The notes below the pieces were generated by a model, which ran no database searches, was not told the DNA's origin, and saw only the letters and a program-made list of their open reading frames with translations. Position numbers and translations under genes: made by a program. A stretch of 64,000 nucleotides of DNA from contig OZ020519.1 of the NCBI GenBank assembly GCA_963971425.1, forward strand, positions 7,456,028 through 7,520,027, given 5' to 3'. Source of the stretch: Bryoerythrophyllum caledonicum. Its lineage: Eukaryota; Streptophyta; Bryopsida; Pottiales; Pottiaceae. This document shows positions 4,501 to 62,599 of this stretch, piece after piece (position 1 is the first letter of the stretch; every line of letters begins with the position of its first letter).

Positions 4501-4782
4501 GCACAACGGTATGCAAATTGCATGGACTCAATCTGGGAGCCATCTGGGGAGAGTCATAGTTGGGTAGAGAAAGATGCATGCATTTTTTCATGGGTAGACT
4601 CTTTGGAAAGAACCATGTCCGGAGCCAACGGGTGGAGAAAGCGCAATGTATTTGGAGTGCAGGTTGAAAGCAGGATTCGCATTCTTCAATCGGCAAAGGC
4701 TCACATCCTACAATATATTGCAATGCAAACCGAAGCTATCGATGACGACCGTTTGCAAGCAGCCCTAAATTCTATGGAGTAG
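1564..4782 (+). pseudogene. DUF7869-type transposase-like gene with four in-frame stops
   Basis: One reading frame runs from the ATG at 1564 to the stop at 4782 (about 1,070 codons) but is broken by TGA at 2578, TAA at 2638, TGA at 3628 and a TGA near 3703. All pieces stay in the same frame. The centre carries IIVDGMDQ (about 3106-3129), QADNCTRENKN (about 3355-3387) and VGHTHEDIDQRF (about 3463-3497). I recognise this set as the DUF7869 family of transposon-associated proteins; it resembles an RNase H-fold DD(E/D) triad, which is inference. A paired-Cys segment, GGCPQPHRCIRC, lies before it. The C-terminus (ending ALNSME) is conserved in the deleted copy at 61469-61765. The stops make this copy very unlikely to give full-length protein. 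Confidence 0.75.
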
Positions 4783-5524
4783 ATAGTGTGCCTTTTTGAG
4801 AGTATACTAGTTGTGTATGGTAATTGATATATAGTGTATGTGTAAGAGTAGTATATTCTAAAGGTGATGTAAGACGTTATGTCATTAATCCTTTAGAGTA
4901 AAGTTGTGTTTACTATTGGTGCTAAGTCCAATTGTTGAAGCATCTATATTTAGTTTTGACCATTATATGCATTATGTACTACGTAGAATATCTTTTAATC
5001 AACTGCCAACCCTTGTATAAAGTATGTTTTTTTGTAATTACGCCTGTTTATATACTACAATCCTTCAAATCTATCTTTGAAATATTGTGAAACTATATTA
5101 AATACACATTTATCTAGTATTAACGAGGGGCCACCACAAATTAGTTGAGAATGCCAAAAAATTGCTTCCCATATGAACAACCATGATTGTACGTAATATT
5201 GTTGCAGAAGTTCAATTTTTTTTCCTTTGGAATTTTTTTTTTTTTCTTTGATTTTTTTTTGGTTGCAATTTTGCCACTTTTGTTCGCAATGGCTGCCGTT
5301 GTACCCAAGTGCACTTTTAAATGGCCAAGTGCATAATTTCTTAATTGCGTGTTAAAAGCGGAATGTAGACAAAAATGGCTCCACCTGCACCTCCCCTTAC
5401 CTCAATGAATTGTAACAAAAAATAGCCCATCTTAAATGTGCAAACATAATACTAACCACCTTGCTATACCACCACCTCCCCCACATATTGTGGTTGTATC
5501 CCCTTAAAGTTTGCCCCTGCATAT

Positions 5525-9581: not shown

Positions 9582-10374
9582 CCCCTAAAGGACCACGACC
9601 ACTTTGGCTCTAAAACAAGTCCAAAACTGCCACTGCCAAAAAGAGACATGAAAATCACATTTTAAAGTGAATTTTGGATTCCTTTGCTTGTGTCAACAAA
9701 AAAAAAAAAAGTGAATTTCGGATTTTCAACCGTAAGATCTTAAAATAGACTTCTATATAAACATGCCATTAAATTTTGGTTGCAATCCACCGCACGGATT
9801 GATAGATTTTAGTGTTTAAAGTCAAGTGTGCAAGGAGTGGAGGTTCAAATATTTCCATTTCACGTTTTATTTTTTTGTGAACTACGTATGTATTCAAATG
9901 ATAATCCAAACGGTCAATAAGAAGGTTTTCACCACATATTGTTGTTGAAAAAGTAAAAAGTGAAAAATATGAAGATCTCTAGGTTTTGTGTAGAAAAGAT
10001 GAAGTTTTTTTCCCCCGTTGCCCGACAATGTGTGAAAATGTTTGACTTGGAATAAAATGCCTTTTTACACTAAAGACAATTTTTTTTTTTGAAAATTCCA
10101 AAAAAGGAAATATTCTTTATATGTGTGAAAAATCTCAATGTCAATAGAAACTTTTGTCAAAATTTTTGGAGGTGCCCAGTGTCCCCACTTTTGGCTTTAA
10201 GTGGTACTAACTTTCAAAACACAAATCCAAAAAATAAAATAAAAATATGTCCACGAAGCTCTTATCAGAGGCAATATAGAATAAAAATTTTAGAGAAAAA
10301 GGTTTTTTTTTCGAATTTTATAAACCTGCCCAAAATCAGAAATCCCCCTGAAGGAGACTCTGGTCCTTTAGGGG
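9582..10374 (+). mobile_element. TTAA-MITE (copy 3), 793 bp, perfect ends
   Basis: TTAACCCCTAAAGGACC at 9578-9594 is repeated perfectly in inverted orientation at 10362-10378. TTAA is the duplicated target. The unoccupied site is present at 54696-54699 within the other family T MITE (ccgatcacTTAAggcagttg). This is the cleanest copy for defining the family ends. No coding capacity. Confidence 0.9.
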
Positions 10375-10403
10375 TTAAGCCAGTTGGGGACTCAAGTGAC
10401 ATT

Positions 10404-14570: not shown

Positions 14571-17500
14571 ATGGGGCGCCACCTGCTCCAGGCACTCTGC
14601 TGCAAGGTCCTGTTGCTCGGATTCTTCGTGTTGTGGACTCCGCGTGGTGCCAAGTGTGTCTTGGCTTTGAACGACGAAGGTGAGCTTTTTAGCGAAAGTG
14701 AGAGCCTAAGTGTGGACGGGCCTGAGTGACTCACTGTGCTGATAGATAATATTCATCTGAATCCAGGTCAGGCATTACAAGAGTTTGGTAACCGGTTGAG
14801 CCACGGCGGCAATGGCGGTGCAATAGTCTTGTGGTTGGGTTGGAACGCTTCTCATTCCACGCCGTGCGGGTGGACTGGCGTCGAATGCTCCCAGGATCTG
14901 CACGTCGTGTCTGTGTAAGCGAGACTGTCCTCTTTTGTTTTTTTGGTTTTTCAAAATCGCCACTCCTTTGCACATGGATCAGGGTTCAGCAGTGATGGGA
15001 AGCCGAGTTCATGATCTCGTTGTCACTGCTCTGAACGTATCAAGTGAATTTCCAATGGTGCACAGAAACGTATCCGGTAAACAGCTTCAAGGAAATTTGA
15101 CTTTGGACGTGGCACGTTTGGTCCAGCTCCAAGCCTTGAATTTCTCGTTCAATGGTTTCCGGGGTGCCATTCCCAGCTTCTGGGGCAACTCTGCAAACTT
15201 GAGAATTTTGTGAGTGTTGGACTCATGACTCCTCGATTCATCTTCTGTCGCCATGCCACTCTTTTCTATCGTGTTTGTAGAGATGGGGTCAGCATCATCA
15301 GCAGCATAGTTATTCAGATAAGGAGATTTGGCCAGGGTTTTGAGAAAATGAATGTAAAGGAAGTAGTTAAACTCTCTGACAAGATGTCGCCCAACAATTA
15401 TCATAGGAAATCAGATACTTGTACGCTTGGTGGCATCTCTCATACTTTGGTGGAAAATGATGTCGAATGTTAGCCCTAGGTTTTAGAGATTTTCGGGATG
15501 CTAAAGTATGTGTCATACCATAAAGTTCTGAATATCTCTATGATAAGGAGAGGTTGTCAGATGAATGCCTTAAGACATGCTTGCTAAATGAAGGACACAA
15601 AGGGTGGATGGACCCAGTGAGACAATCTTTGGTAAACTTTCGGAATTTGCAGTCATGACTCTAGTTTCTCATTCATTTCTTGTGCTTTCAGGGACCTGTC
15701 AAATAACAGGCTGAGTGACAGGATTCCTGAAGGATTGAACGGGCTTTCGAACCTGACCTTCTTGTAAGAGACCGACCTTAATTATGTTCTAGTTTCACCT
15801 CATTTAAGGCATCCATGGGTACGTTGGAAATCACTGTAACAAATGAGGGAGCTTTGTTTCAATGATTGGCAGAAATCTATCAAACAATGATCTGGAAGGC
15901 GCTCTGCCGCAAGGAGGGATACTCGCGTCGTTCAATGCCACATCGTAAGCGTGGAATGAACTCAATGTGATGAAGCATTAAGGTCTGTGCTGCTCAGCAA
16001 CTCACTGCATAATACGTTGTACGTGCAGATTTGAGGGCAACGACGGACTATGTGGACGCCCAACCAGACGAGCTTGTAATCGTTCTTTGCTTGAGCGTGA
16101 AGCTGATGGCGCAAAGCAGATGAACACTCGGACGATCCTGGCCATATGCATCCCCCTGTTTGCTGTCAGTAAACTTTTGCTCTTCCTGATCTGGTACTGG
16201 CGACGGAGGAAGATGCGCACGACTTGCGAAGTGAAGCTATCAGGTACTGTATCAGAGCCTCGCCTCGCAGGAAGAATCATGTGAGTCATGTAACATTTTC
16301 TAACCAGTGGGCTTGTGCAGGTGGGAGGATGATCATGTTCCAGCTGACAGGGCACGTGACGCCCCTAGCGAAGGCTGTGCTCCGGAAAGCTTTGAAGCTC
16401 AAACCGCAGGACATCATCGGCAGTGGCGGCTATGGCACGGTGTACAAGCTCGTGTTGGATGACATGTCCACATTCGCTGTGAAGAAACTGAACAACGGCG
16501 CCAGGGACCGCGACACAGGGTTTGAGCGCGAACTCCAAACTCTGGCAGACGTCAGACACCGGAACCTGTGCGCGTTGCGTGGCTACTACAGCGCGCCCGA
16601 GATCAACTTTCTGGTCTACGACTTGATGCCGAACGGCAACGTGGAATCTGCCTTACATGGTAACAATTCGCATTTCCGAAAGTAGTAATCTCTTGACAAG
16701 ACTAAATTGTCTACATCGTATAATTATTTATCGTGCAACTTGTAACATTCATGTTCAGATTATGCGAACCGTAACACGGACCCTCTTAACTGGGACGTAC
16801 GTTTGAACATCGCGCTGGGCGTTGCCCGGGGACTGAGCTACCTGCACCATGATTGCATTCCGCACATCATCCACCGTGACATCAAGTGCAGCAACATCCT
16901 TCTAGATGAGCATATGGAGGCCCACGTTGCCGACTTTGGGCTTGCCAAGCTCATCAATCCCGGTGAGACCCACGTGACCACCATCGCTGCAGGAACGCTT
17001 GGGTATCTACCTCCAGGTGTGAAATTTGGTCACTTGTTCACAAAGTCTTACAAGAATGATGTTCAGTTCGTGTCTAATTTATTCTGAGTCCTGTATCTGG
17101 ATATGTTGACTTTTTTTACATGTTGCAAGTGGTTTTCTGTTTTGAACTGTGACTGATTGGATACATGTCTGAGCTGCAGAGTACTTGGACACTGGGAAGA
17201 TCACCGAGAAAGGGGACATATACAGCTTCGGTATTGTGCTCCTTGAGCTTCTGACTGGGAAGCGGTCGAACGATGATAGTTTTAGAGATCATGACTTTAA
17301 TATAGTCCAATGGGTGAGCACTCACCCTGATAGAGTTCCGGCGTTTGCTGATGTGCATACAACTCATGATTCTCATAGCCATTGTTCTCGGTGCTGCAGG
17401 CCAATGCGTTGCTGGCGGAGAATCACCCGGAAGACATCTTCGATGAAACCATACAAGGTTCGGCTCCGTACGAGGACCTGCTGTCCACCCTCAGCATAGG

Positions 17501-18174: not shown

Positions 18175-19070
18175 CTCCTAAGAGCCCAAGCCATTTCCCC
18201 TCAAGAAACACTCCAAAATTGCCGCTATCAACAAGTGGCAAGAAAATCTAAGTTTGAGGTACAATTTTGGACTTTGACCGTAAGATCTTAAAAAAGACTT
18301 CTATACAAACTTATCATATTTTTTTGCTTAAATTGTCCGCACAGATATAAGATTATAGCGTTGAAGTCATGAAAATGGTTCATTCTCTTCCTTGCATCAA
18401 ATGAATTAGCAGACTTCAACTTCACTTGGTGTCAAGTTTTTCACTACAAAAGGTCTAAATCCTTCGTGTTAGGCATGATGTTAGTTCCTTATACACAAAC
18501 TTTTAGAGGTAGAGAAGGGGTGTAGCATATTCAAAACAAGTGTGCAAGAAGTGGAGGTTCGAAAATTGCCAATTCACGTTTTGTTTTATTGTGAACTTAA
18601 TATGTTTAAAAAGTTAATCCAATTGGTGAGAATGAAGGCTATCACCACGCGTTGTTGTTGAAAAATTAAAAATCGAAAAATATGAAGATTTTTAGGTTTT
18701 ATGTAGAAAAGAAGAAGTTTTTTGGTACCTTGCCTGACAATGTGTGAAAATGTTTGACTTGGGTTTAAATGTTTTTTTGCACTAAAGACAAGAATTGTTT
18801 GACTTTTTCAAAGAAGGTAATATTCTCTACATGTAGTATTGTCAATGTCAATAGAAACTTCTAGCAAAAAATTTGTAGTTGCCAGGAGTCCCCAATTTGA
18901 CTTTGAAGGCTAATAACTTTCATATTATGAATCTAAAAAATAAGTATTTCCACAAGAATCCTACCAGGGACTACCAGATTAAAAATTTCAAGAAGAAAAT
19001 ATATTTTTTCGAGTTTTAGGAGTCTGCCCAAATTGAAAAACGTCCCCCAGGGTTATATGGGCCTTTAGGG
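18175..19070 (+). mobile_element. TTAA-MITE (about 900 bp), right end mutated
   Basis: TTAA at 18171-18174 is followed by CTCCTAAGAGCCC. The right end is GGGCCTTTAGGGG, after which TTAA has become ACTA. The interior (gtgcaagaagtggaggttcg; acaatgtgtgaaaatgtttg) is shared with the other full copies. Confidence 0.75.
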
Positions 19071-19336
19071 GACTACTGTGGAAACATGAAACTCTCCTCG
19101 AACCAGTATAATGCATGATTGACCAAGCAACACGGAGAAATTATTATATCCGCCACTCCCACTTGCACTTATTCATATCAACTTGAGTTCATCCTATTGG
19201 TTGCTGCAATGAGGATAATGCTCCCAATTTTCATACACACTTTTTTGACAGGTTCATACTTCACAAGCTCAGCTCCTCACATTCCAAGGTTGAGTTACTC
19301 AAAATCTGTCTTGAAGGCTAGGTGTGAAAGAAGTGA

Positions 19337-22060: not shown

Positions 22061-22506
22061 AGTCGTAGGAATAGCGCAGTGCCAGCAGTCTACTTCGAGC
22101 TCCTGAACACCGCAAGTGAACCCAAAACTTGGTCGCACCAATCTACGAAACCGTGTCGACGTTGCTAAACCGACACTCCTTCCCTCATGAACTACGCTGC
22201 ATTTTTTTTCTCCGCTATTTTTGAAACCTTCTTCGTGTCGAAATAATTCCATCGCTGCATTTAGATTGTTGTTTGGTCGTGGCGCCATTAATCTTGAAAT
22301 GACGTTTCTTATAATGGAAAGATGTAGGGACGTGTTTCCAAAATTGCGGCGACTGCGGCTGTAAATTCCTGGAAACCTTCCTTTAAATATGTTTTCTCTT
22401 CACACGGCAACTGTCCCTCACCTGCCTCTAAACCGCCCCCTCGTGCGCCTATTTCTGTGCAAGTGTGCCTCCACCACGGTGATAAGACCTCCATTGCACG
22501 ATTTAA

Positions 22507-23450
22507 CCCCTAAGGTACCGTGATAGTTTTCCACCAAAAACACTTCAAAATTAATGGATTCTAGTGCAATGAATAAAGAGGGTAACAAAAACTTTGATTT
22601 TTAGTTCTGACCGTAGGATCTCAATAAAGGCTTATTAAGTAATACATGAACAAAATTTCATAAACTTTGACCGCACGGATTGAAAGATTATAGTGTTTGA
22701 AGTCAAGCAAATGGTTCATTTTCTTCCCTGCGTTTAGTGGATCAGCAGACTTTGACTTCAGTTGGTGTCAAAAAATTTCACTACACAAGGTCTAAATCTA
22801 TTACCATCTTGTTAAGCATGATGTTAGCTCCTCACACACCAATTTTTAGAGGTAGAGATGGGGTGTAGCATATTCAAAACAACTGTGCAAGGAGTGGAGG
22901 CTCGAAATTTGTTAATTCACACTTTATTTTTTTTTGAACTTAATATGTTTTCGATTGATAATCCGAATGGTTAATAAGAAGGTTTACATTACATATTGTT
23001 GTGGAAAAATAAAAAGTGACAAATATAAAGATACCTAGGTTTTATGTGGAAAAGAAGAAGTTTTTTTGGTACCTTGCCCAACAATGAGTGACAATGTGTG
23101 AAAATGTTTGACTTGGGTTGGTATGCTATTTTTCACTAAAGACAAGAACTTTTTTTTGACAATATGAAGGGAAATAATATTACTTGCGAGCACTGAAAAT
23201 CTCACTTTCAATAGAGTGTCCTATCAAAAGTTTTTGGAGGTGCCCGAGGTGCCCGCCCTCCCCATTTAAAATTCAAAACCCTACAACTTTTTCACCAAAT
23301 GTCCAATTTAGGAAAAAATTGTTTTCCCACTAAGGTCTTGGTAATGTCTTTCTATAGTAAATTTTTTAAAGAAGAATGTTGGAAATTGATACCATAGGAA
23401 CCTGACCGAACTTTCAAAAAGCCCATTTTTGACACTTGGTACCATAGGGG
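22507..23450 (+). mobile_element. TTAA-MITE, full-length reference copy (944 bp)
   Basis: TTAA lies on both sides (22503-22506, 23451-23454). The left end is CCCCTAAGGTACCGTG; the right end reverse complements to CCCCTATGGTACCAAG. The interior holds the family blocks used to recognise other copies: ttgaccgcacggattgaaag, gactttgacttcagttggtg and acaatgtgtgaaaatgtttg. No conserved open frame. Confidence 0.85.
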
Positions 23451-23512
23451 TTAATACCCTTTTTGAGTGTTGCTTCAGGGTTGAGTGTCGGTTTAAGGTA
23501 TTTTGACGTTAC

Positions 23513-24925: not shown

Positions 24926-24935
24926 CACAAACAAC

Positions 24936-25210
24936 GCCCAGGGCGAACTGACCCCCTCGTTCCCCCTCGCGGGATGAAGGGGCCAGTTCCCCTCATCCCC
25001 GTTCATGACAGCAGCAACAGTGGGGAACAGATCCCCACCCGAACCCCCACCGGTCTGAACCCAGCCCGACCTGCAGGAACAGTACCCGGCAGGTACAGTA
25101 TCCCCGCGCGGGTCTTCGTTCCTCCGCCCAGCTCCGCTCCCCCGCGTTTATGCTCGTCGCCCCCCATCACCGCGCGCCGCCCCCCATCACCGCGCGTCTG
25201 TCTACGCACC
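24936..25210 (+). repeat. Left terminal inverted repeat of the Mutator-like element
   Basis: GC-rich, about 275 bases, matching the reverse complement of 30870-31146 with a handful of substitutions (for example near 25060 and 25150). Open frames across it are shadows shared by both ends. It probably includes the promoter for the plus-strand gene. Confidence 0.9.
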
Positions 25211-25670
25211 TGCGCCTGTCAACGTTCTGTGCTGCGCCTGTCTACGCCTCCTGTTCCCACATTTCATGTCAGGCTTGCTGCTGCATTTCAACACCATCTA
25301 AGAGGTGAGTTCTAAGTTTACACCATATTCAAGTTTTTGTAAGTACTTTGCTATTACAACATTGACTTATTAGGGTTTAGAGATTGTGACATATTTGCAT
25401 TTGTTTTTCTTTGTGACGGTGTTGCAATGGGAGATAATATGTGTTTTAGGTATGCTTGATAGAGGCATGCAATGCAAGTGACTTGACTTTGCAATATAAT
25501 ATGGTTTTTGGATATTGGGATTTTACAAGAGTGGTGATTTTTGTTTTTTGACTACCAATTTAGGTAGTCACAAGTGCTTTGAAATTGTTGACAATGCATG
25601 ATGTGACATGTTGTGCATATATTATTTTGTAAGAAGTGATGGATTCCACGTTAAGGACATTTTTTTTGAG

Positions 25671-25930
25671 TCGTGTCGGGTATTGCGAGTTTGTCACAGC
25701 CATTAGCAGTGACATATTTAGTGTCCTTTTCTACGTCGTGACGGGTATTGCAAGTTTGTCACAGCCATTAGCAGTGACATATTTAGTGTCCTTTTCTACG
25801 TCGTGACGGGTATTGCAAGTTTGTCACAGCCATTAGCAGTGACATATTTAGTGTCCTTTTCTACGTCGTAAGGGGTATTGCAATGTTGCCACAGAGTTTA
25901 CTTGTGACGTTTTATGTGCTCTTTTTCTCA
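25671..25930 (+). repeat. Left subterminal array, 65-base units
   Basis: Four head-to-tail units start at 25671, 25736, 25801 and 25866; the second and third are nearly identical and the last is degenerate. Each contains (g/t)cgggtattgc. The reverse complement of this core recurs in the right subterminal array, so the two arrays point toward each other. Confidence 0.85.
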
Positions 25931-26215
25931 CGTGAGGGATATTGCATATTTTTTTCCCCTTGTTTAGTAATGTTAGGTGTTCATTAACTTATGATATTGT
26001 TGCAACATATTAGGTGCTTTCTTTTTGGGGTCCTAACAAAAATTGTTTTATTTTTTCCATGACATCGTGTTGTACTTGATGTGTTTTAAATTCATGGCCG
26101 GTATTGGTATGTTAGGACTATCTCTTTCATTTTTCTTGATTTTGTGATTAAGTCTTGTACGGCTTAAAGAGGTTTGAAGGTGTAAGATACTTATATCATT
26201 CTTGTTTGTGTGTAG

Positions 26216-27247
26216 TTTTTCATTCCGCGGGACGGAGTTATCCGCCTTACCACTTGCCGTTCTCGATTGGGACTACAAAGATGTCCCGCATGCGGTGAAG
26301 CCATGGCATTGCGAGGTTGAGAATTGTTTTCTCGGTCCATGGAAGAATCGGCGACACTTGAATATCCATCTTCGTCATCACCATCACATGGAGCTTACGA
26401 CCCAAACACTTGGTCGTCCACGGAAGGTAGAACGACTTCGCAACATCAACTCTCGCCGTATGAATGCAAGAATTTTAACGAAGCCGTTCAAGAGACAACG
26501 GAAGGAGTTTTGGAAAAAACTCCTAGCATGGACGAAGGCGGCGGAGGCGTTGTGGGCACAAGTGGAGTTGGCAGCCACCATTAATCGTACTACGTCGGAG
26601 AAACCTTTTATTGTCATAGCAATGGGGAAGAAGTATGCCACTCACCTCGGGGCAAAGAAGGAAGGAGTTGGAGAATTGGATGCGGCATGCCTTGACGCAC
26701 TACCACGCCATCCCGATTTTGCCAACGCCGTTATGGAGTTGAAGTTAGGCCGTGACGCAGACGACTTGGACATTGCGCAATTGGAGGATCTTCACCGCAT
26801 TTTCAATCAAAAGAAGGATTGGAAGAAAAATTTGAAGCTTCGAGCTAAGTGTGTGGAAGACTTGGTACGTTGGCACCGTCAACAATCTATTCAAGCCATG
26901 TAAGTTCATTTACTTTCATTTCTTCTGAAGTTTGTAAACTAGTAATGTTAGTGAATCATGTTGTATATTCTATTTTTTAAGTATAAATATGTTATTGACA
27001 TAATTTATTATTGTAATGTAGACACAAAGAAGGGAAGACCAAATTCATTGAACGCTACTTGGAGGCCGAGAAGAATGTCTTCTACGTGAAGAACATTCTT
27101 TCTATGGACCGCATTGAAACAGCATGCTCCGTCTATGCGGATAAGCGCGGCTTGGATGTCGAGGAGGAATGTAATGAAGAAGATGAAGAAGAAGAAGAAC
27201 AAGGTGAAGAAGAAGAAGAAGGAGGAGAAGATCAAGAAGAAGAGTAG
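26216..27247 (+). CDS. Second gene of the Mutator-like element: C2H2-like, acidic-tailed protein
   Basis: Two exons are supported: 26216-26899 and 27022-27247, joined by GT-AG in phase (at least 302 aa). The first begins after a good 3' splice site (tgtgtgtag) and has no early ATG, so a 5' exon upstream is expected but not found. Near the N-terminus is a finger-like WHCEVENC...RRHLNIHLRHHHH (C-x4-C, then His residues). A Lys/Arg-rich stretch and a Glu/Asp-rich C-terminus follow (last ~30 residues). The protein is not mudrB by any similarity I can see, but it occupies the same convergent position that mudrB holds in maize MuDR. Its role in DNA binding or insertion is a guess. Confidence 0.68.
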
Positions 27248-27627
27248 ACCAATAAGAGTTTATGCTTTGTATTTCTTGGTTTTTTTTTGTTATGAGTGTC
27301 TTCTTCTTTGTGTGTTGAATACGGTTTTGGATAGTATTTCCATTTTGGTGAAGGATTTGATGTAAACCATGATGTGATATAAATGGATGTGAGATTTATA
27401 CTCATTGTTCATGTTCAATATTATTGAGTATAATGTGAATACCATTTGTGAAATTTTGTATGTTTCATTATCGATGTGTAAATGGTATACATAATATCAA
27501 TATTAACGACTCTATAATAATATGAAAAGTACCAAGACATACATCCTTATTAACCTTGTAAAAAAACCTCAAATTATGGAAAAACCATTGAGATAAACAA
27601 ATAAATAATGTACTAACTATACAATAT
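27248..27627. other. Shared 3' region between the convergent genes
   Basis: 380 AT-rich bases lie between the two stop codons, presumably both 3' UTRs and terminators. No further gene. Confidence 0.5.
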
Positions 27628-30022
27628 CTACTCTATTGGAGTATTGGTCTTTCTCCTCTTCCGAGTGCCCGCTATTCGTTCCCTCCAATCTTTCTTCCTA
27701 GCCACCGAATTACCATCTTTTGTATATAAAATTTCAAAAGTTGCTTGAGGATGCGAAATATTGTTCTCTTGTAACGTACGGATTCGGCGGATGTCACTTA
27801 CAACGGTAGACATCATGGACTGCAAGTGCTTCATAAGGAGTTCACCTCCAGAAGTGGCTTCAGAAATTGACTTCTCCATCAAATCTCTAACCATACGTAG
27901 AGTACATTCGTTGGATGATTCTTCCACCACGTCTTTGTCATCACCGTCTTCACTTTCAACATCTTCAAAAGGATGACTTGGGACATTGTGAGTGAACATA
28001 GCTTCAAGCCCACCTCGAACCGAACCATAAAAAGCTCCTAAATATTCTAACAAAGTTTTCCACGATAAATCAGTAGACACTTTGAGAACAACAAGTTGAT
28101 GCTTACAAAAGTTACCCCGTATGCTCCATTCACATGAACAACACGCATACGAAGTAAATGGGTCATGAATATCATACCAACGGTCGTGAAAAGATTGTGA
28201 TTTCACTTTCCATATTATATCACCTTCTTTCGGGGGTAGAATGTCGTGGAGGGGAATTGTCTTGCCTCGTGCAATTCCTCTTTCTACAATCCCTTCCACG
28301 GATTTGTTGGGAATGTAACCGTTCACCTTTTGCCCTTGCATATACATGTAGTGATTGACAACCGAGTTTGTCAACCGCCATACAAGAAAATCAATTCTTT
28401 TCCCCCGTCTATCTCGATTATCAATCAACATCCACCGTTTAAGAGCTCCATGATAGCCTTCAATACTTGATTGAGTATCTTGGTTTGAATGATGATGCCG
28501 ACGGTGACCAATGAGGTATAAGTCTGTAACAATATAAAAGAAACACATGTTATCTATAAATTGTTATTGTAGTACATCATAAAAAAAAATGTAGTGTTTA
28601 TAATTTAAAAATGTAGTACATACGGAAATATCAAGATCCAATAAGAAGTCAAGTACCTTGATGTTTGTAGTGAGTTTCGAAGTACTTTTGGAATTTATCA
28701 ACATATAAATTTTGGAAGAGAGTTTCACCAATCTTCTTTGCACGTTCCAAAAAATCCGATTCTTCTTCTTTGTACTCGATCTATAAGTACAAAAAATAAT
28801 GAAGAGCCTTGTATACAAGATCCCGTAAGTTTCCCACGTTTGGAACCTTAAGGAGGATATGATTCTTCCAATTTTTGATAATATAGAATGCACATAAGTA
28901 AATGGGGACATCATCTTCCGGCCAAGCACGCTTAATCACGTTTCGAATTTCCACAGCATCGTCAGTCATGAAGCATGAAGGTAAGAAGTGGGGCATATCT
29001 CTCTCGATATGCCGTCGCAAAGGTTCTAACCACATGGTTAAATCCTCTTCTGTAGATCGACTTGAAAGCACCCAAACAACAGGAATTCCGTTATTCCAAT
29101 CATCAAACACAAGTAGAGACCATAGGAGATAGTTAGGGATATTTGTACCATGTGTTGCATCCATAGAGATTGCTCTCTTATGCCCAAATTTCATCATCAT
29201 CTTCTTTTGCCAATCGGTTTGGATACCCAAGATGAAAGGTAAATCCGTCACATCATCTTGTTCATGCCACATGAAAACGTTTTTGGGACATGCTTTAGTC
29301 CACATCTTCACGCTAGAGAAATCCGAAGGATCTCTACGCCAAATCCCCATCTTCTGACGCCCCTCCAAGTATGCTATATCTTTGAGTTTGATGAAGTCAT
29401 CTCGATTGTAAGGCATACATAATTTCTTTCGGCCATTCCAATTCCGCCGATGCTCTTCAAATATTTGAAGAGATGTGAATCCTGCACTCAATTTCCTTTG
29501 AATCCAAGCCTTCATTTCGCCACTCATTCGCGGTTGATATGCGGTTTTTCTTCCAATCGACTCTGGATCACAAGGACCATGAGCTGGAGCCCCATCTTCT
29601 CGTGTGTGATCCACATGATAGTATGCTACTTCGGCAACATCTGGATACAATTGTAAGTGCTTGATTGAAAACTCAGCAATACATCCACGTTTGTGAGACT
29701 TACAAATTCGTGGATCGTTCCTATGATCCTCCGGGCCATACGCACATTCGTACCACACATGCTCAATAAATGAAGTAGTGTATGGCTTCTTCTTCGCTTC
29801 TCCTTTCTTTCGCTCTTTCACATTCCAACCAACCGATGAACCGTCGTCACAAGTTTGACCTCTTATGAAATCTTGAATCCTCTCATAAGGGATGTATGAA
29901 TGCACGATTGCACTTGCATTGCCCCATCCTTGTCTGCTCGCATGCTCCCATGTAATATCATGGAATGAAATTGGTCCAGGCGGAGGATTCTGGACGTTGA
30001 TAGTCTTCCTTGATTTTGGCAT
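27628..30022 (-). CDS. MULE transposase with SWIM zinc finger (mudrA-like)
   Basis: It starts at the ATG at 30022 on the minus strand. Exon 1 is 30022-28657 and exon 2 is 28523-27628 (133-base GT-AG intron), giving about 753 codons in one frame. The N-terminus has Cys residues and a YYHVDHT motif, like the WRKY-GCM1-type finger of many MULEs (about 92-140). The catalytic core has SMDATHGTN (Asp288), FMTDDAVE (Asp354), the YLCAFYIIKNW motif (375-385) and SIEGYHGALKRW (Glu477). The SWIM finger CSC...CKH lies at about 584-597. An in-frame TAG occurs at codon 414 (28781-28783), so this copy is either disabled or removes a very short intron there. It would act in the nucleus on the terminal repeats. 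Confidence 0.85.
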
Positions 30023-30269
30023 GTTGACTCTATAAGAAAAAATTAGAACATAAGAAAGACAAATTCAGCAATGAAAAAGAAAGTGGCGGATAGATCAATT
30101 TACGTACATAAATAGTCATTTATTTTTAATGCGGTAGAAATGAAAAGAATTTTATTTGAATTATGAGAAATTTGTGTAATTAGAAGGTTAGGGAAGACCA
30201 AATATGCATAGCAATACACTTCACAGACATGAGAACTAAAAAAAAATTCCTTAGTTACAATGTTTTTCA

Positions 30270-30530
30270 AGAGTAATACCCGTCACGCTACAAGAATATG
30301 AAACAAATCGTCCCTGGTTTCTTATGACAATATCCGTCACAAAGGAAAAACGTCTCAATAAATGTACTTGAGTGAGCATTTAAATGGCAATACCCGTCAC
30401 ACGCAGTAAAAGTTCCCTAAAACGTCCCTGGGAGCCCTTGCATCCAAACGCAATACCCGTCACCGCGTAGTAAAAGTTCCATAAAACGTCCCTGGGAGCC
30501 TTTGCATCCTATCGCAATACCTGTCACGCA
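30270..30530 (-). repeat. Right subterminal array, ~62-base units
   Basis: (G/C)AATACCCGTCAC-type cores recur at about 30274, 30329, 30388, 30451 and 30514. The last two full units also share gtaaaagttcc and acgtccctgggagcc. It is the mirror counterpart of the left array at 25671-25930. Confidence 0.82.
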
Positions 30531-30869
30531 CAAACCCAAATTTAAGAAATGCGTCACTATCTACTTCTTCTTCTACACCATCTTCAAAAATTGTATGTAG
30601 CATAAATTTGTGCCATAAAAATCCTAAATCACACTCAATGCAATGATTGAAATATGTGTTATATCCTAAACATTAATAACTCACTCATTGCATAAACTAA
30701 TGTATCATTCAAGAAACTTGACAATACAAAACTCAAACCCTAGTTCTCAATGACAACATACCTAAGCACAAAAGATGAGCTCAAAAGATTAATCTCTACG
30801 GAATGGAAACCATCAAAGAAATAATGTATTCAAAATTAGTGTCAAATGGGCACCCCACAGAACAAGTGC

Positions 30870-31146
30870 GCAGGTGCTAGACAGAGAGGCGGTGATGGGG
30901 GGCGGCGAGCAGTGATGGGGGCCGACGAGCATAAGCGCGGGGGAGCGGAGCTGGGCGGAGGAACGAAGACCCGCGCGGGGATACTGTACCTGCCGGGTAC
31001 TGTTCCTGCGGGTCGGGCTGGGGTCAGACCGGTGGGGGTTCGGGTGGGGATCTGTTCCCCACTGTTGCTGCTGTCATGAACGGGGATGAGGGGAACTGGC
31101 CCCTTCATCCCGCGAGGGGGAACGAGGGGGTCAGTTCGCCCTGGGC
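30870..31146 (-). repeat. Right terminal inverted repeat of the Mutator-like element
   Basis: It matches the left repeat inverted, ending ...CAGTTCGCCCTGGGC at 31146. It presumably carries the transposase promoter. Confidence 0.9.
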
Positions 31147-31156
31147 CACAAACAAC

Positions 31157-31799: not shown

Positions 31800-34512
31800 A
31801 TGGAGGTGAAAAATGGTGCCTTTTCGCCGTTACTGACCCTTCTTCTTCTCCTCGCATTGAACTCCAGAGCCTCCGAGGCGGTGAATTATGAAGGTTAGTG
31901 GTTCGAACCCGTTTTCTCCCTTTTTGATGAATGGCCAGTGAATCGGAACCAGGAGTTGATGTTGAAACTGGTTTGTTGTTTGAACAGGAAAAGTATTGCA
32001 ATCCTTCAAGATCCGCCTCGAAGACCCGGCGGGCGCGCTCCGCAACTGGAATGCTTCAGACATAACTCCTTGCGGATGGAATCGCGTCGGCTGCAACAAC
32101 GCCACCAAAGCCGTCACTTCCATGTAAGCTTTGTGAGGAAGGTTTTTGGTGTGATTTCTCTTGCATTACAGAATGAGACACTTATTTGTTGCTTTTGGTG
32201 GGATTGCAGCAACCTTTCGTTTTTGAACCTCACCGGCTTCATTGCTCCTGAGTTAGCCGGTCTCAAATATTTGGAACGACTGTGAGTCACACCTTGTCCT
32301 TCGCATTTTGGCTTTCTCAAATTGGGTTCGTATGACTTGTATATCCTCAATGTCGAATCATTGATCTTACAAATTTCGTTATGATTTGTCAGGAGCCTCC
32401 AGAACAACAACCTCTACGGGAGTATACCGGAGGCTTTCGGCAACTTCACATCCCTCCAAGTCCTGTAAGTGCTCATCCCGAGTGTCAGTGTCACGTGAGT
32501 ATAGTGCGGTGGTTGCAATGTTTCGGCTTCATTTTTCGAATATCAAATTTGTTTGAGAACTGAACTACTGGCTACGTGGGTGTTCTTGTGCTTAGAAATC
32601 TACGCAACAACTCTATTTCTGGAAGTATCCCTGAAACGATGGGCAAGCTGAAGAACCTCCGTTTCCTGGATATGGCCAATAACCATCTCGAAGGCTCAAT
32701 CCCAGAAAGTTTCCGCAATTTAACAAGGCTGGAGCACCTGTAAGATTGCCTTTCGGTGCTTCTGACATCAATGGCGTGAACTTACTTACATGTAGTGCGG
32801 TGTTGTTTTAGCTCCATGGTTACGGTGGATTTATGTTGAAAGAGTTTCGTTTTATGCTGCAGGGATCTTTGCTTCAATCAGCTCTCTGGAAAGGTTCCAG
32901 AGGGAGCTCTACTGCTCTTCAATATATCCTCGTAAGTGGCTAAACCTGCTTTCTTTTGTTTGTGGTTGACACTGAGCTTACTCTGAAAATGCTTCGTCTC
33001 TTAAACGAGTAGAGATGTGTATTGACTTGAGCTGGATACGTGTTGGGAATGTGGTTCAGGTATTTGGGAAATGTCAGGTTATGTGGTCTTGCATCAGTAG
33101 GACTGCCGTCTTGCTCACCACCGCCTGACCTTGCGCCCAGTTTCGGACCTTCTGTGTCTCCTGGTATGCCCTCATTGAATTACCGTGTTGGTGTCTTGTT
33201 CTCCTTGCGTTTGAGTTTACACTTAGTTAACTTGATTTCTGTGTTACGTGTGCTTGCAGTGATAAAGAAGCCTGCGTTGACACTGGTTCAGATCGTGCTT
33301 CTCTCAGTTGGGCTGTTTCTGGGGTTCAAGTTCATAATAGCCATCATTCTCATCATGCGTTGGGTGAGGAAGGACAATCGCATCGAGATCAACCTTGGAG
33401 CGGGCGGGAAGATCGTCATGTTTCAAGGGGGTGCGAGCGTGCCCACCTCGAAGGAGATGCTGTGCGCCTTGCGGCGCATTCGGAAGCAGCACATCATTGG
33501 CGAGGGTGGCTATGGCGTGGTGTACAAGCTGCAACTGAAAGACCATCCAACCTTGGCCGTTAAGAAGCTCAAGACATGTCTGGAATCCGAACGAAGCTTC
33601 GAAAACGAGCTGGACACTCTCGGCACCGTGAAGCATCGCAACCTGGTCAAGCTCAAGGGCTTCTGCTCTACTCCCTACGTCAAGCTCCTGATCTACGACT
33701 TCCTCCCCGGTGGCAACCTCCATCAGCTCCTCCATGGTAAGCATGGCGCTCATTTAGAGTTTTAACTTAGGTTTTCACTTCCAGGTTCTGGTTTTCTAAT
33801 CAATATTGTGGTGTTTGTTCTTGTAGTTGAGAAGAAGGACGAGGACGTAGTGATCGACTGGCCTATCAGGTACCGGATTGCGCTCGGAGTGGCGCGGGGT
33901 CTCGCGTATCTTCATCACGGCTGCGACCCGCGTATCATTCACGGCGACGTGAGCTCCACCAACATCCTGCTCGACACGACTTTCCAGCCCTACCTCTCGG
34001 ACTTCGGCTTGGCGAAGCTGGTCGCCACGAACGACACGCACGTAACAGTCACCGTCGGCGGGACATTCGGCTACGTCGCCCCGGAGTTCGCCAAGTCGGG
34101 CAGAGCCACGGAGATGGTGGACGTGTATAGTTACGGCGTGATCCTGCTAGAGCTTCTGAGTGGGCGGATGGCGGTGGACCAGTTCATGCCAGACGAGTAC
34201 ACGAACCTTGCCGCGTGGGTCCGCGGTCTCCACAGCCAAGGGCGCGCCATGGAGATTGTCGACAAGCAGCTCCGGGATACTGTTGCAGGTGTGGAGCTCG
34301 ATCTGTTGCTGGAAGTGGCGTGCCACTGCATCTCTCTCAACCCGCAGGACCGGCCGCAGATGAACAAGGTGGTGGAGACGCTTGAGATTCTCACGGAGAC
34401 GGAGATGACGCCGTCCGGGACTTCGGTGAGGACGTCGCACACCAACACCACGGACGGTTCTCTCCGAGGTCACTTCAAGCACCTTTCTCTCAAACCTTCT
34501 AGTAGTCTCTGA
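31800..34512 (+). CDS. LRR receptor-like kinase B, non-RD with altered catalytic loop
   Basis: Predicted 617 aa. Exons are 31800-31893, 31988-32123, 32210-32281, 32393-32464, 32596-32739, 32863-32931, 33060-33163, 33260-33736 and 33827-34512, all GT-AG and in phase. A Leu-rich signal peptide is followed by LRRNT (WNASDITPCGWNRVGC) and five LRRs on 72/144/69-base exons. The transmembrane helix is at about 239-263. The kinase has GEGGYGVVYK (311-320), Lys332, DFG (448-450) and GTFGYVAPEF. The catalytic loop reads HGDVSSTN (428-435): the Arg of HRD is Gly and the usual Lys two residues after Asp is Ser, while Asp and Asn remain. It is therefore non-RD and possibly of low or no activity. The family is close to kinase A and FEI-like proteins. 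The start is chosen by good context (gaaaATGG) and signal peptide. Confidence 0.9.
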
Positions 34513-35048: not shown

Positions 35049-35519
35049 TCAGTTACCATTGTAGCCGCAGAAGCCATTTCGGCACCTGACGCGACGCCGG
35101 CACCGGTTGCCGCACCGGCCGCAGTTGTCGCGGTCGGAGAGCAAGTTCACGCAGACCCCTCCGCAGCACTTGCGTCCGCTGGGGCGGCAGCTGTGTGTGC
35201 ACGAGCCGCACCGCAGGTCGTTGTCGGCCCCCACGTCGAAGCACCTCCGGTTGTTGCGCGACCAGCAGCACTGGGAGTTCCGATACTGCGGCCATGGGAG
35301 GATCAGCCTGCAGGCGAAGTTGGGTGCCCTCCCCCCGCCGCACCAGTTCTGCCCGCGCGAGTTCCGTTCCCCCTCGTTTTGCAGTAGGAACCGCCCCGGT
35401 TGCCTCGCGGATATCCACGGCGTGGTGTCCTCATTTTCAGGCTCGAAATCCACCTCTGAAGAAGTTGCAGACACCAACCAGAGACTCGCTGATAACACAA
35501 CCAGGACTCGCAGCCACAC
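35049..35519 (-). CDS. STIG1-like cysteine-rich secreted protein (start uncertain)
   Basis: The open frame of about 156 residues begins with a hydrophobic signal-like stretch (LRVLVVLSASLWLVSA). It ends in the STIG1 signature CCGGVC, then DNCGRCGNRC, then CRNGFCGY. Upstream Cys pairs (NSQCCW, CGSCTHSC) also fit the family. STIG1 proteins are small secreted signalling proteins, best known from stigmas and also found widely in land plants. No in-frame ATG exists between the upstream stop and the signal sequence; the first listed codon is GTG. The Met must come from an unseen 5' exon or was lost through a frameshift (an ATG at 35556 lies in another frame). The gene is tail-to-tail with kinase B. 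Confidence 0.75.
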   Translation of the reverse strand: MWLRVLVVLSASLWLVSATSSEVDFEPENEDTTPWISARQPGRFLLQNEGERNSRGQNWCGGGRAPNFACRLILPWPQYRNSQCCWSRNNRRCFDVGADNDLRCGSCTHSCRPSGRKCCGGVCVNLLSDRDNCGRCGNRCRRRVRCRNGFCGYNGN

Positions 35520-35569
35520 CCTGGGAATCTTGCATTTGACCCTTCCTGTCGGAGATTCATAATTAAAAC

Positions 35570-36411
35570 GTCAAAATGAGATACTGATAACTGTGGCGGC
35601 ATTTCACAAACTTTGTCATCTAGAAAATCTGGACCTTAGACCTCGAAGTTTTGCCAGAGTTACGAACAAGACACGTCGGAGAAGTTCCACCCAAAGGTCC
35701 AAACAAAATCTGGTAAAATGCAAGACATACGTGAAATTTCTGCTGTACTCTAAAAAACCTCCAACAGCTTTGGAACACGTTAGATTGAACACTTATGAGC
35801 CTCCACATGACCACAACAATGCAGAAATTCATTCAAGGCTGCAGAAAGGAGAGCGTACGTACGGAATTCCATAGTGGAGCTTGACTATCAACTTCAAGCC
35901 TGGGGCGGCCACCCAGCACTGTGTGTCAGGAGCTTGAAGAAGATGGTTGTGCTTTATACAGATCACTGGTGGAACGGAACGCAAGAAATTTCGTTACCAA
36001 CGCCCCTAGGCTCTTACGTACCAACTTGGCCAAGTTGTGGACAAATTAAAATACTAAAATATTCCATGTTGCAGTTGGCTCTATAGCAATGTGCCTGCAT
36101 GCAGCCCATGCACGTTGTGTTGACAGCCAGATATCAATTTTGAAGCGCCTTTTGCAAGTGAGCATGTAGCCATGATGAGTATGCAATCATGTATCATGAA
36201 TTCAGAGGTTGATAGTTATTATTGATAACCTGATGGACTTGCGGAAGTTGGCACATTCGACAGGTTCAAGTCACTATTTTGTGATCATGAAATTGGTAAT
36301 TTATATTTCTGGAATTTTCAGACATTCCACGTTGAGGATTTCGTCTATCAGAGAGGTTGACTGGGGAATGAACGACGTGAGTTCTTTTTTCCTTCGCTCC
36401 TCTGCATCTCA
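35570..36411. other. No gene recognised
   Basis: Region upstream of the STIG1-like gene. Short open frames show no family features. It probably includes that gene's promoter. Confidence 0.4.
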
Positions 36412-36415
36412 TTAA

Positions 36416-37345
36416 CCCTTCAACTCCTAAATGAAAAAAAGTCCCAGGTTGGGCTTTTGCATATCTCAGGCACGTTCCCATGATTGCAATTCTTGAGATT
36501 TTGTACAGAGATGCAAGAAGACAAGAGATCCATGGGAGTAAATTTTTTGTTCTCATCGAAAGGGAAATTATGCTATCTTAAAGGGAAAATTGTTGAGTGC
36601 GGGCACGCCACTTAACTCTAGAAGCTTTTGCTAGGACACTCTAGTAAATTTTAGATTCACAAAAACTAGCAAGAAATATTATTTCCAATCATGTTGTCAT
36701 TAAACATTTCTTGTCTTTAGTGAAAAAACGCATTTTATCCCAAGTCAAAGATTTTCACACATTGGCACACATTGTTGGGCAAGGAACCAAAGATACTTCT
36801 TCTTTTCCACATAAAACTTGGAGATCTTCATGTTTTTCACTTTATATTTTTTCTATTACAATACGTGGTGTATTCCTTCTTATTGACCACTTGGATTATC
36901 ATATCAAAACACATTATATTCCCAAAAAATTAAAATGTGGATTGGCAATTTTTGAACCTCCAGTCCTTGCACAAATGTTTTGAATATGCTACACCCCTTC
37001 TTTACCTCTAAAAATTGGTCTACAAGGAGTTAATATCAAGATCAACATGATGATATAAAATTTAGACCTTGTGTAGTGCAAAACTTTGACACCAAGTGAA
37101 GTCAAAGTCTGCTGATCCACTCAACGCAAGGATGAAAACGAACCATTTTTCATACTTAAAACACTATAATCTTTCAATTTGTGTTGTCATAGTTGATGAA
37201 ATTTTGTAAGTATGTCATTAATGAAGTGTTTAATGAGATCCTACAGTTAAAACTAGAAATAAGATTTTTTTTTCCTCTCTACAGATTGCACTAGAATTAA
37301 TAGTTCTGAAGTGTTTTGGTGTGTAATTGTCAAGGAAATTTAGGG
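36416..37345 (-). mobile_element. TTAA-MITE, reverse orientation (about 930 bp)
   Basis: TTAA at 36412-36415 is followed by a worn end (CCCTTCAACTCC). The right end ATTTAGGG is followed by TTTA. Interior blocks match the family in reverse (cctccagtccttgcac; gtctgctgatccac; tcacacattgttgggcaagg). Confidence 0.7.
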
Positions 37346-37349
37346 TTTA

Positions 37350-38539: not shown

Positions 38540-41500
38540 CTGCAGCAGCATTTAGACGGTCAGCTAAAAGGGCTGGCCGCTGAATTATACACCTTAGAGG
38601 TGTAAGAATTATTTGGAACAGAAAAAATGGAAGGATTGACTGAAGGAGTAATCCCGATGGAATATCAAGACATGCAAGGGGCTTTCAGTGAGGAGGCATC
38701 CAACGAATTACCGGATCATGGAACATCAAATATAAAGATAGAATTCAAGGAGGGACAAGAGCCACGAAACATTGGCTTACGGCCCATGTCTTCAGTAGAA
38801 CTACAGGAACTTCGTAAATATTTGGAGGAAAACCTCGGAAAGGGATGGATTAGGAGATTCAAATCTTCGGTCTCAGCCCCAGTTGTGTTTGCTAAGAAGA
38901 AAGACGGAACGATTCGAGTATGTGTGGATTACCGAAATTTCAACCGTGTTACAATAAAGAATCGATATCCGCTACCGCTGATCCCCGAGCTCATTGATCG
39001 GTTATTGGGAGCTCAAGTTTTTACCAAGTTGGACATAAGACAGGCATACCATCGCGTGAGGATGGCCACGGGTCATGAATATAAGACAGCATTTAAAACA
39101 CGTTATGGATTATTTGAGTATTTAGTGATGTCGTTTGGCTTAACAAATGCCCCAGCTCAGTTCCAAGCACATATGCAGTTTATTTTCAATGACCTATTGG
39201 ATATATCAGTGGTGATCTATCTCGACGATATACTTATTTTTTCAAAAAATTTAGAAGAACACCAAGTAGTGGTAAGAGAAGTTCTACGACGACTACAACG
39301 ATATGGGCTTTATGCTAAAGCATCAAAGTGTCACTTCCACCGTAGCTCCGTGGAATTTCTAGGGATGATCGTCTCAGGAGAAGGACTACAGATGTGCCCA
39401 GATAAAATCCAGGCAATTCAAGAATGGCCAAGTCCAAAAACAATAAAGGAGGTCCAAGCATTCTTAGGCTTTGCAAACTTTTACCGCCGCTTTATTTGGG
39501 ATTATTCAAAAATTGCGGTACCCCTCACGATCCTCACAAGAAAAAACCAACAATTTCTGTGGGATACCGTGGCCCAACAAGCATTTGAGGAACTACGATC
39601 GCGGTTTATACAAGCACCGGTATTATTACATCCCAATTTTGACCAACCTTTTATTGTTGAAACGGACGCATCCGACACTACAATGGTAGGCATCCTCTCT
39701 CAACATGGAGAAGATGGGCATTTGCATCCTTGCGCTTATCATAGCTCTAAGATGTCACCAGCAGAACAAAATTATGACATCTACGATAAAAAGTTACTAA
39801 GTATTGTCTTAGCGTTTCAAGATACCTTGAAGGGTCACCTCATCAAGTACGAGTAATTTCTGACCATAAGAATCTCGAGCAATTTCTTACCACCAAACAA
39901 CTTAATCGACGACAAGCTCGATGGTCGGAGCGGCTATCAGCATTCGATTTTGTTATTCAGCACAGGCCAGGATCATTAAATGGACGAGCGAATATGTTAT
40001 CAAGACGCACAGATATTGAAAATAAATTTGACCACAATTCAAGACCTTTACTACGATTAGCAATGTTGGAAACATGTCAACCGGTTTGGAATGACGTCGA
40101 AATTATTAACATGATCAAATTATCAACCATTAAGGATAAAAATCTAGAGCCAATATTGGCATTTTTTACAAATAACCCTGATCAAGCACCAATAAACATC
40201 CAACGACGATTTCAAGACTACAATTTTCAAAATGGAGTACTCTATTTCCAAAATAAGATGGTGGTACCTGAAAATAATGAGTTAAGACTCCAGATACTAA
40301 GATCAAGACATGATGCCCCGCTTGCTGGACATTTAGGCCGTGCAAAGACTTTAGACCTGGTAGCGAGAACATTTCATTGGCCCTCCTTGCATCAATATGT
40401 TCACAGATACGTAGATGGTTGTGATCTATGCCAACGTTCAAAGTCGACACGCCATAGTCGATATGGACTATTACAGCCAATTCCAGCAGCACAAGCTCCG
40501 TGGAAACGGATAACAACATATTTCATTGTAAAATTGCCAAAGAGTGCAGGGTTTGATACTATAATGGTGGTAGTTGATAAGAACACAAAATTGGCTCATT
40601 TTATCCCAACAAATGAAACAATTGATTCAAAAGGAATGGCTACGTTATATCTTCATAATATCTGGAAGCACCATGGAACACCAGAAGAAGTAATCTCCGA
40701 CCGAGGGCCGATATTTGTGTCAAAATTTTTACGACGTTTATATGACCTCCTCCGTATTCACCCCCTTCATACAACAGCCTTCCATCCACAATCGGATGGA
40801 CAAACGGAGCAGGTCAATCAAACTTTAGAGCAAATTCTACGAATGTTCACTACCAGGTGCCAAGATGATTGGTCCGACCTCCTTCCCCTAGTCAAATTTG
40901 CTTATAATAATTCTCTTCATTCTGCTACAGGCTTCTCACCATTTTATGCCACGTATGGCTATCATCCAACTCTATCTTTTATAACACCTACAACTTCCAC
41001 GGTCCCAGCAGCCGAAGAACGGATTTGTCAATTATAAGCGGTGCACGAAGAAATAAAGACTATGATTAAGATTGCAGGAGATCAAGCAAAAAGAAATTAT
41101 GATCGACTTGTTCAACAACAACCGCATTTCAAACTTGGCGACAAAGTACTTCTTCGACACGAACACATTATGACAACTGCACCTTTTAAAAAATTGGGAC
41201 CCAAATTCTTAGGACCATTCCTTATCATAGCTAAAATATCAGATTTGGTATATCGTCTCAAGCTGCCCAAGACACTTCGCATCCACGACGTGTTCCACGT
41301 TTCGTGCTTGGAGCCATACCGCCAAGACACAATCCCAGGCCGCAAACAACAACCACCACCACCTATCGTATCATCTGATGGAAATATTGAATGGGAAGTA
41401 CATAGCATATTGGACTCTCGAATAATTGGCCAAGGAAAGAAACTTCAATATTTGGTTGCATGGCAAGGCTATGGACCGGATCAAAACTCGTGGGAGCCTG

Positions 41501-55360: not shown

Positions 55361-56260
55361 ACACCCAATTAAGCAATTATGCACTTAGCCAAGTGCACTG
55401 ATTGCTGGTAGAAAGCCGCAAGTTTTTTGCTCCTAACGTAAAAAAAATCAAAATTTGGCAAGAGTTTAGTTTGTTTTTTGTCACAAAATTTTGGTGTTTG
55501 TTGTGTCAAACATTGACATCTTCATGTTCATATAAGTGATATATATTTTTTATTTGCTACCTTTTTTTAGAAAATATATGATTTCTAATCTAGTTTGCAA
55601 ATCCTGCTACAAAATAATAATCATGTGGCCAAAGAGATTATAAATGTGTTTTGAGTTATTATAGGATTTTAGAGTACTGCACTACAAATACAATGTGTAA
55701 GAGATACAAAAATATATATGCAATTTCCTAAGACAGTGTAAAGTACCTCACTGTATTTTATAATGCAAAAACATACATAATCAAGCAATTCCACACTATT
55801 GCAGAGGGATTCTAAAATCAAACATATCATATGGACCAGCCAATATATAAATATATACCACCCACGGAACGTGAATTGAGAATTTTTGTACCTCCACTCA
55901 TTGCACAATTTTTTTGAATGTGCTACACTCTTTTTCTACCTCTAAAAATTGGTACACATGGAATTAACAGCGTGCTTAACATTATGGTAATTATTTGAAA
56001 CCTCTTATAGTGCAAAAATTAGACACCAATTGAAGTTAAAGTCTGCTGATCCAGAAAACGCAGGGAAGAAAATGAGCCTTTTCTCTACTTCAAACATTAT
56101 AATCTCTCAATCTGTGCGGTTAAACTTTATGAAATTTTGTGAGCATATTACTAAATAAGTCATTATTCAGATCCTACGGTTGGAACTACAAAAAAAACTT
56201 TACTCTTTCTTCCTTGCTAATTGCACAAAAACAAGCATTTTTTACGATTTTTGGTTGAGA
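55361..56260 (-). repeat. Possible deletion derivative of the DUF7869-type unit
   Basis: 55361-55404 is a diverged reverse complement of the 3' end of the DUF7869-type unit (aagcaattatgcactt, ccaagtgcac). 55865-56200 is TTAA-MITE interior sequence in reverse. The order matches a unit from which the gene was lost, but the middle (55405-55860) shows only weak similarity. Confidence 0.4.
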
Positions 56261-59275: not shown

Positions 59276-59734
59276 CAACACAAAAAAATGTTGTGTCCGG
59301 AGGACACGGGTAACACTCTAGTTTTTTACATATTATATTAAACCTTTGGTCTAATAATATATAAATAATAATACGAAGATACTTGTTAGTTTTTATCATA
59401 TGATTTTAACAAATCACCATAAAAATTTTATGCACATTTTTCAGGTTTCTTGGAAGAGTTGAAAACATGTCCAACAACAAGAACGGAATGGTGATTTAAT
59501 GTTGAACGCCATCAAACAATGATGTCTGTATCGCTAACACCTGCAACATACTTTGAGGTAATCAATTATTTCTATACATATTTGAGATTGATTCTTGATC
59601 GATCTTCTATACTATGTTGTTTGTAGAATAACCTTTCTGTGGATGTTCAATCCCTTTGTTTTTATTAGCGATTATATCAAGTTCTAATGGTGTCAATAAT
59701 AGTAAGTAATATTATTTGTTTTTGTATCGATAAA
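59276..59734. other. No gene recognised
   Basis: AT-rich sequence leading into the next TTAA-MITE material. Confidence 0.45.
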
Positions 59735-62313: not shown

Positions 62314-62599
62314 TCTTTGTCTAAACCAAAAGAAAAGAAAAACAAGGAAGAAAAAATAAACGATTCGTACTAGCTACTTAAAAAAACTAATAAGGCTTGA
62401 TGTAATGAAAGAAAAGAGATTGCAATTCATGGACATGTCATTTTGCATTTCCAATTTCCAAATAATCATTTCAAACAATTTTTTTAAATTAAATCAAATA
62501 ATGAGTTCTATTGCATACACAAGAAATGAAGATTCATAAAATCAAAAAAATAAAATATGTATGCATGTCCATTGTATAGTGGGGTGACACCCAAATTGG

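Follow-up and report, generated by a model that had tools for sequence, protein, structure and literature searches.

Positions 24936-31146 of the window, the 64-kb stretch of DNA that was analysed, are occupied by a Mutator-like element (MULE) of 6,211 bp, which is best explained, with a probability of about 0.5, as a two-gene element from a moss-type lineage, with a second protein that binds its motif arrays and acts as an anti-silencing factor or as a helper of transposition. Its assignment to the MULEs follows from the PF10551 domain of the transposase, the exact 10-bp target site duplication and terminal inverted repeats (TIRs) that are identical in 270 of 280 aligned columns, with 9 mismatches and 1 gap. 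According to the proposed mechanism, the transposase, an enzyme of the DDE type that bears a SWIM-type finger, would cut and join at the GC-rich TIRs and leave the 10-bp duplication. This cut-and-paste action we infer from its family; the ends, the duplication, the gene layout and the arrays are the anatomy observed. The product of the second gene would be a small protein in which a C2H2-like finger is followed by basic stretches and an acidic tail, and it would most likely be the binder of the 14-bp motif GTGACGGGTATTGC, which is arrayed in both predicted leader introns; once bound, it would keep both genes expressed against silencing or aid the assembly of the transposition complex. Alternatively, the binder of the arrays may be the transposase or a host factor. 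The coordinates of the features are collected in Table 1.

Table 1. Features of the element and of its target site, in window positions.
Feature	Position	Strand	Remarks
Target site duplication, left copy	24926..24935	.	10 bp, CACAAACAAC
Left TIR	24936..25215	+	alignment to right TIR
Second gene, rival candidate start	ATG 25150	+	inside TIR; donor AGAG/GTGAGT at 25305
Second gene, candidate start exon	25427..25449	+	ATG 25427; donor TTTTAG/GTATGC at 25450; frame and splice-site consistency only
Predicted leader intron, second gene	25450-26215, or 25305-26215 with rival start	+	splice sites only
Left array, 65-bp tandem	25670..25946	+	in predicted leader intron of second gene; five GTGACGGGTATTGC copies
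Left-array GTGACGGGTATTGC positions	25673, 25738, 25803, 25868, 25932	+	motif scan
Second gene, main exon	26216..26899	+	C2H2-like Cys/His (by eye), then basic stretches
Second gene, intron	26900-27021	+	GT-AG
Second gene, last exon	27022..27247	+	Glu-rich acidic tail, stop
Transposase exon 2	27628..28523	-	putative catalytic Glu 477 (numbered through stop), SWIM-type Cys/His residues
Transposase intron	28656-28524	-	between exons 1 and 2
Transposase exon 1	28657..30022	-	ATG at 30022; putative catalytic Asp 288, Asp 354/355
In-frame TAG	28783-28781	-	transposase residue 414 of 753
Tyr codon at His of CxxH (CAFY)	28883..28885	-	alignment with relatives
Predicted leader intron, transposase	about 30761-30030	-	splice sites only
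Right array	30211..30527	-	in predicted leader intron of transposase; six GTGACGGGTATTGC copies, 54-64 bp apart
Right TIR	30868..31146	-	alignment to left TIR
Target site duplication, right copy	31147..31156	.	10 bp, CACAAACAAC

Both copies of CACAAACAAC are exact and directly adjoin the TIRs, and the TIRs, of about 280 bp each, have the same outermost 123 nt, so that the perfect 10-base duplication and the nearly identical long terminal repeats described in the earlier note are both confirmed. By our own arithmetic, 10 bases at a given position agree by chance with a probability of about 1e-6, and target duplications of 8-11 bp are given for MULEs in the available text of PMC6446971. The G+C content of the left TIR is 68% (first 269 nt), and that of the element interior ranges from 21% to 35% across the five noncoding stretches measured. 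A blastn search of the element against the 64-kb window (E 1e-3) returned no match outside the element itself. When the 1.5-kb flanks are joined to reconstruct the empty site, the only stop-free stretch across the site that reaches 60 codons is 70 codons long. The alignment of the terminal repeats had also been proposed as a way to date the insertion; this use of the TIR divergence was dropped, because the two TIRs of a cut-and-paste element may differ before insertion and their identity at 270/280 columns therefore provides no clock. The exact duplication is a better sign of youth than the TIR divergence.

The transposase gene on the minus strand and the two-exon gene on the plus strand converge, in agreement with the two inward-facing genes reported earlier. 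Exon 1 of the transposase contains a MULE transposase domain (PF10551, E 1.7e-8, 35.2 bits against a Pfam cut-off of 27.6) and a ZSWIM1-3 RNaseH-like domain (PF21056, E 7e-9, above the Pfam cut-off). The SWIM match stays under its Pfam cut-off (15.5 against 19.6 bits), though the four metal-binding Cys/His residues of the finger are present and line up with those of the relatives that cover them. MULE transposases carry DDE residues with a CxxH motif between the second D and the E. Here D288, D354/355 and E477 are present, the histidine of CxxH reads as tyrosine, and the in-frame stop follows the second putative catalytic Asp and precedes the Glu. At the position of the stop, the three close relatives with sequence there (P0001, P0002 and P0005) all have Pro, and they read CAFH or CSFH where the transposase of this element reads CAFY; in more distant relatives the CxxH position is variable (H, R or T). 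No stop is seen in any aligned relative at the position of residue 414, around which most of the flowering-plant sequences carry a small insertion. A 36-nt intron that would remove the TAG (28816-28781, starting with GT and ending with AG) was considered and rejected, since the three close relatives with sequence there are coding, with Pro at the position; moreover, plant introns are usually longer than 36 nt. The stop may be an assembly error. As read, the copy is not autonomous because of the premature stop and the changed CxxH histidine; its autonomous activity is probably lost, and any movement would require an enzyme supplied from elsewhere. The element had been called structurally complete, which is correct for its ends and for the presence of both genes but not for the broken frame of the transposase.

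The lineage of the element is read from the relatives of this enzyme. Specifically, 38 of 1147 candidates match transposase exon 1, and the best among them include a JGI entry (84% identity over 68% of the query) and an ENA entry (63% over 97%). The best relative that bears a name is a protein of the moss Ceratodon purpureus, with 58% identity over 88% of the query, and the remaining close relatives are ENA, JGI or NCBI entries with identities of up to 84%. The transposase thus appears to be of moss type and, judging by its relatives only, we infer a moss or close bryophyte as the host. A more distant set, P0011-P0037, is about 30% identical to the transposase, and 21 of its 27 members bear species names that we take to be those of angiosperms. 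At the position of the first catalytic Asp, 18 of these 21 have His, and the Asp is kept in 3, two from Linum perenne and one from Aristolochia fimbriata. The set looks like a domesticated host gene family that goes back to the MULE lineage of the transposase and in which the catalytic set is mostly incomplete, and the loss of the first Asp in most of the members recovered here bears on the origin of this flowering-plant family. Two further sequences, P0008 and P0010, keep N- and C-terminal parts of the transposase and lack the DDE core when inspected by eye, as if they came from internally deleted or alternatively spliced copies. Among viral contigs, 21 pattern matches to the transposase alignment were obtained and no relative was confirmed, and the search of phages gave no match. 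The Arabidopsis locus At1g60560 is a possible relative; its name is absent from the text available for the top-ranked open-access papers of a literature search.

The 11 copies of GTGACGGGTATTGC within the element are spaced 54-65 bp apart and are all in sense orientation to the nearer gene. With up to 3 mismatches allowed, the motif has 14 matches in the 64-kb window against 3.4 expected, five on the plus strand in the left part of the element, six on the minus strand in the right part and three elsewhere; likewise, the core CGGGTATTGC with up to 1 mismatch has 10 matches against 2.0 expected, 8 of which lie inside the element. The identity between the two arrays is 0.87 at the motif, falls to the null of about 0.51 within about 10 nt downstream and remains above the null upstream (0.54-0.63), a contrast that is partly circular because the motif copies were picked by similarity. 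In the left array, the entire 65-bp unit is well conserved (0.75-0.91), which leaves only the comparisons across arrays and within the right array as evidence for the motif. A test that does not depend on picked copies took the 401 of 987 14-mers of the left leader with at least 6 G or C and counted their recurrence in the right leader: the best of them recurs six times in sense orientation, against a maximum of one in antisense and of three over 200 shuffles, and the top-ranking 14-mers are those of the GTGACGGGTATTGC motif. The same test on unfiltered 14-mers is not decisive: in 2 of 12 shuffles the recurrence is as high as observed (6 or more), presumably owing to A/T-rich words. The arrays are 73% identical to each other over 94 columns and share ancestry, so the motif copies do not count as independent events; what matters is that the motif has been kept as the rest diverged between the arrays.

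These data also bear on the strongest rival, in which the arrays are subterminal binding sites of the transposase and the second protein acts elsewhere, for instance in integration, the role suggested for mudrB. The two arrays are about equally far from their respective ends of the element (619-922 and 737-996 nt), and transposases commonly bind terminal or subterminal repeats. Moreover, mudrB is apparently required for integration (available text of PMC6446971), and MURA, the transposase of MuDR, itself induces hypomethylation of the TIRs, as described in passages of PMC10398659, which means that a transposase could do the anti-silencing job too and keeps this explanation not far behind. Against it, GTGACGGGTATTGC is arrayed in predicted introns and not in the TIRs, which hold only a resemblance with 4 mismatches, and we consider this rival unlikely, if credible.

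Within the main exon of the second gene there is no in-frame ATG upstream of the putative finger. Two candidate starts with plausible donors, ATG 25427 and ATG 25150, agree in frame, and the scan for a start gave three further candidates. The putative finger, counted by eye, is C-x4-C-x13-H with clustered histidines, a spacing that is off the canonical C2H2; Pfam does not recognise it and has no match anywhere in the main exon, and the acidic tail reaches only a sub-threshold score to NOA36 (E 0.78, 9.5 bits against a cut-off of 32.6). In the earlier label of a C2H2-like acidic protein, the acidic part is supported by the Glu-rich tail, and the finger is seen by eye and not by Pfam. A search with the 280 residues of the second protein in the 5.8-billion-protein database gave 1756 candidates and no relative, and words from main-exon residues 26-128 gave 18 candidates (E up to 1) and again no relative, such searches reaching only proteins that share short exact words with the query. 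Pattern matches in viral contigs (1) and in prokaryote genomes (23) confirmed no relative of the second protein either. The single-sequence fold model of the main exon is unusable (mean pLDDT 36.4). A zinc-finger chain among solved structures (E 0.31) was set aside as a relative because it aligned to residues 113-140, away from the putative finger.

Two further explanations concern this gene. It may be a host sequence captured once, as in Pack-MULEs, with no role in transposition, the arrays being sites of the transposase or of a promoter; such captures are frequent in MULEs according to the available text of PMC6446971, and the transposase is broken here, as in non-autonomous carriers. A captured gene should, however, match a host protein and the second protein found no relative in the database searches; in addition, the predicted leader intron of the gene and the motif array in it have their counterparts in the transposase gene, which makes capture distinctly improbable. 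That the plus-strand frame is no gene at all is very unlikely: the missing homologue, the lack of a clear start codon and the low-complexity tail would fit, but the stop-free frame at 26178-26903 has 241 codons, more than in any of 500 simulated sequences of the region (maximum 228), the GT-AG intron joins two frames consistently, the transposase codons, used to score the main exon in all six frames, fit best in that of the second gene (a moderate contrast, -0.008 against -0.197 for the next frame), and exon G+C (0.49 and 0.44) exceeds that of the introns and spacer measured (0.21-0.35).

Among known systems, maize MuDR is reportedly built of long TIRs and two facing genes (mudrA/mudrB), and the MuDR-like plan recognised in the earlier note is indeed found here in the long TIRs, the facing gene pair and the 10-bp duplication. 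The likeness extends to a duplication of about 9-10 bp and to a MULE transposase with a SWIM-type finger (in part after the available text of PMC6446971). Unlike MuDR, the present element has arrays in predicted leader introns and a transposase that among named hits is closest to moss, and its second protein had no relative in the searches. Its layout resembles that of the VANDAL/VANC elements of Arabidopsis, the closest functional model, in which anti-silencing by the transposon's own protein is already well worked out. In VANDAL21 (Hiun), a MULE with the accessory genes VANB and VANC beside VANA, the element's own anti-silencing protein binds arrays of same-orientation motifs in introns and upstream regions (passages of PMC5735166), and VANC recognises a 9-base motif in one orientation and removes silencing marks (passages of PMC5735166 and PMC10398659). 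One-orientation motif arrays in noncoding regions are thus common to both, with the difference that the transposase array lies in a predicted leader intron here, whereas the tandem-repeat arrays of VANDAL21 are in introns of its accessory genes and upstream of its transposase gene (available text of PMC5735166). The VANC21 motif YAGTATTAY and GTGACGGGTATTGC share GTATT, which may be chance. Unlike VANDAL21, the element has two genes and not three, and the database searches gave no match for its second protein.

Spm/En of maize belongs to the CACTA superfamily, unlike the present element, and its protein TnpA binds subterminal repeats; the putative role of the second protein would be like that of TnpA, a plant-transposon activator. 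In passages of PMC10398659, TnpA activates Spm in correlation with DNA demethylation. In the light of these systems, a narrower version of the preferred reading can be offered tentatively, and is on balance doubtful: a moss-lineage MULE would have independently evolved a VANC-like self-protection, with an unrelated zinc-finger protein that recognises the 14-bp motif in the leader introns of both genes and counters the silencing of its own family. If true, motif arrays with a dedicated protein would be a repeatable answer to plant silencing, of which this would be a further case, with an unrelated protein.

The two-gene layout itself had been considered rare among MULEs, a claim that does not stand, as accessory and antisense ORFs of flowering-plant MULEs are a recurrent finding in the available text of PMC6446971 and the layout alone is hence not unusual. 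PMD domains, sometimes or often antisense, occur in several flowering-plant groups (Table 1 and text of PMC6446971, as available), with 'PMD in antisense for most' in the MUDR group, and second ORFs with a C2H2 finger are noted for both Mutyl and Spectre; for Mutyl, the same source gives the same orientation in its text and antisense in its table. The present element is like these groups in carrying an accessory ORF, which is antisense in several of them, and unlike the PMD-carrying MULEs in that no Pfam match to the PMD domain was found in it. Moss, Physcomitrella and Bryophyta are absent from the main text of PMC6446971 as available, as are MULE, MuDR and Mutator from the available text of PMC7466625 on Physcomitrium transposons, and no earlier description of a two-gene moss MULE was met in the accessible parts of the open-access literature searched, which is weak evidence of absence. 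Hence, the two-gene plan is already known, and the novelty lies in the second protein, in the pair of motif arrays and in the relationship to mosses.

Lastly, the surroundings of the element in the window include a plus-strand frame at 2641-3630 with a DUF7869 domain of unknown function (E 3.6e-45). Protein kinase pieces flanking the element, a STIG1-like frame on the minus strand and a reverse transcriptase frame occupy 16173-16685, 33031-34512, 35049-35570 and 38606-39856. Moreover, a dispersed repeat family with members in both orientations that are about 70-80% alike is present at 207-1401, 9815-10381, 18273-19071, 22503-23456, 36595-37349, 55868-56226 and 59695-61386, and two direct repeats of about 750 bp (4586-5353 and 61569-62314), 90% identical, lie 56 kb apart.
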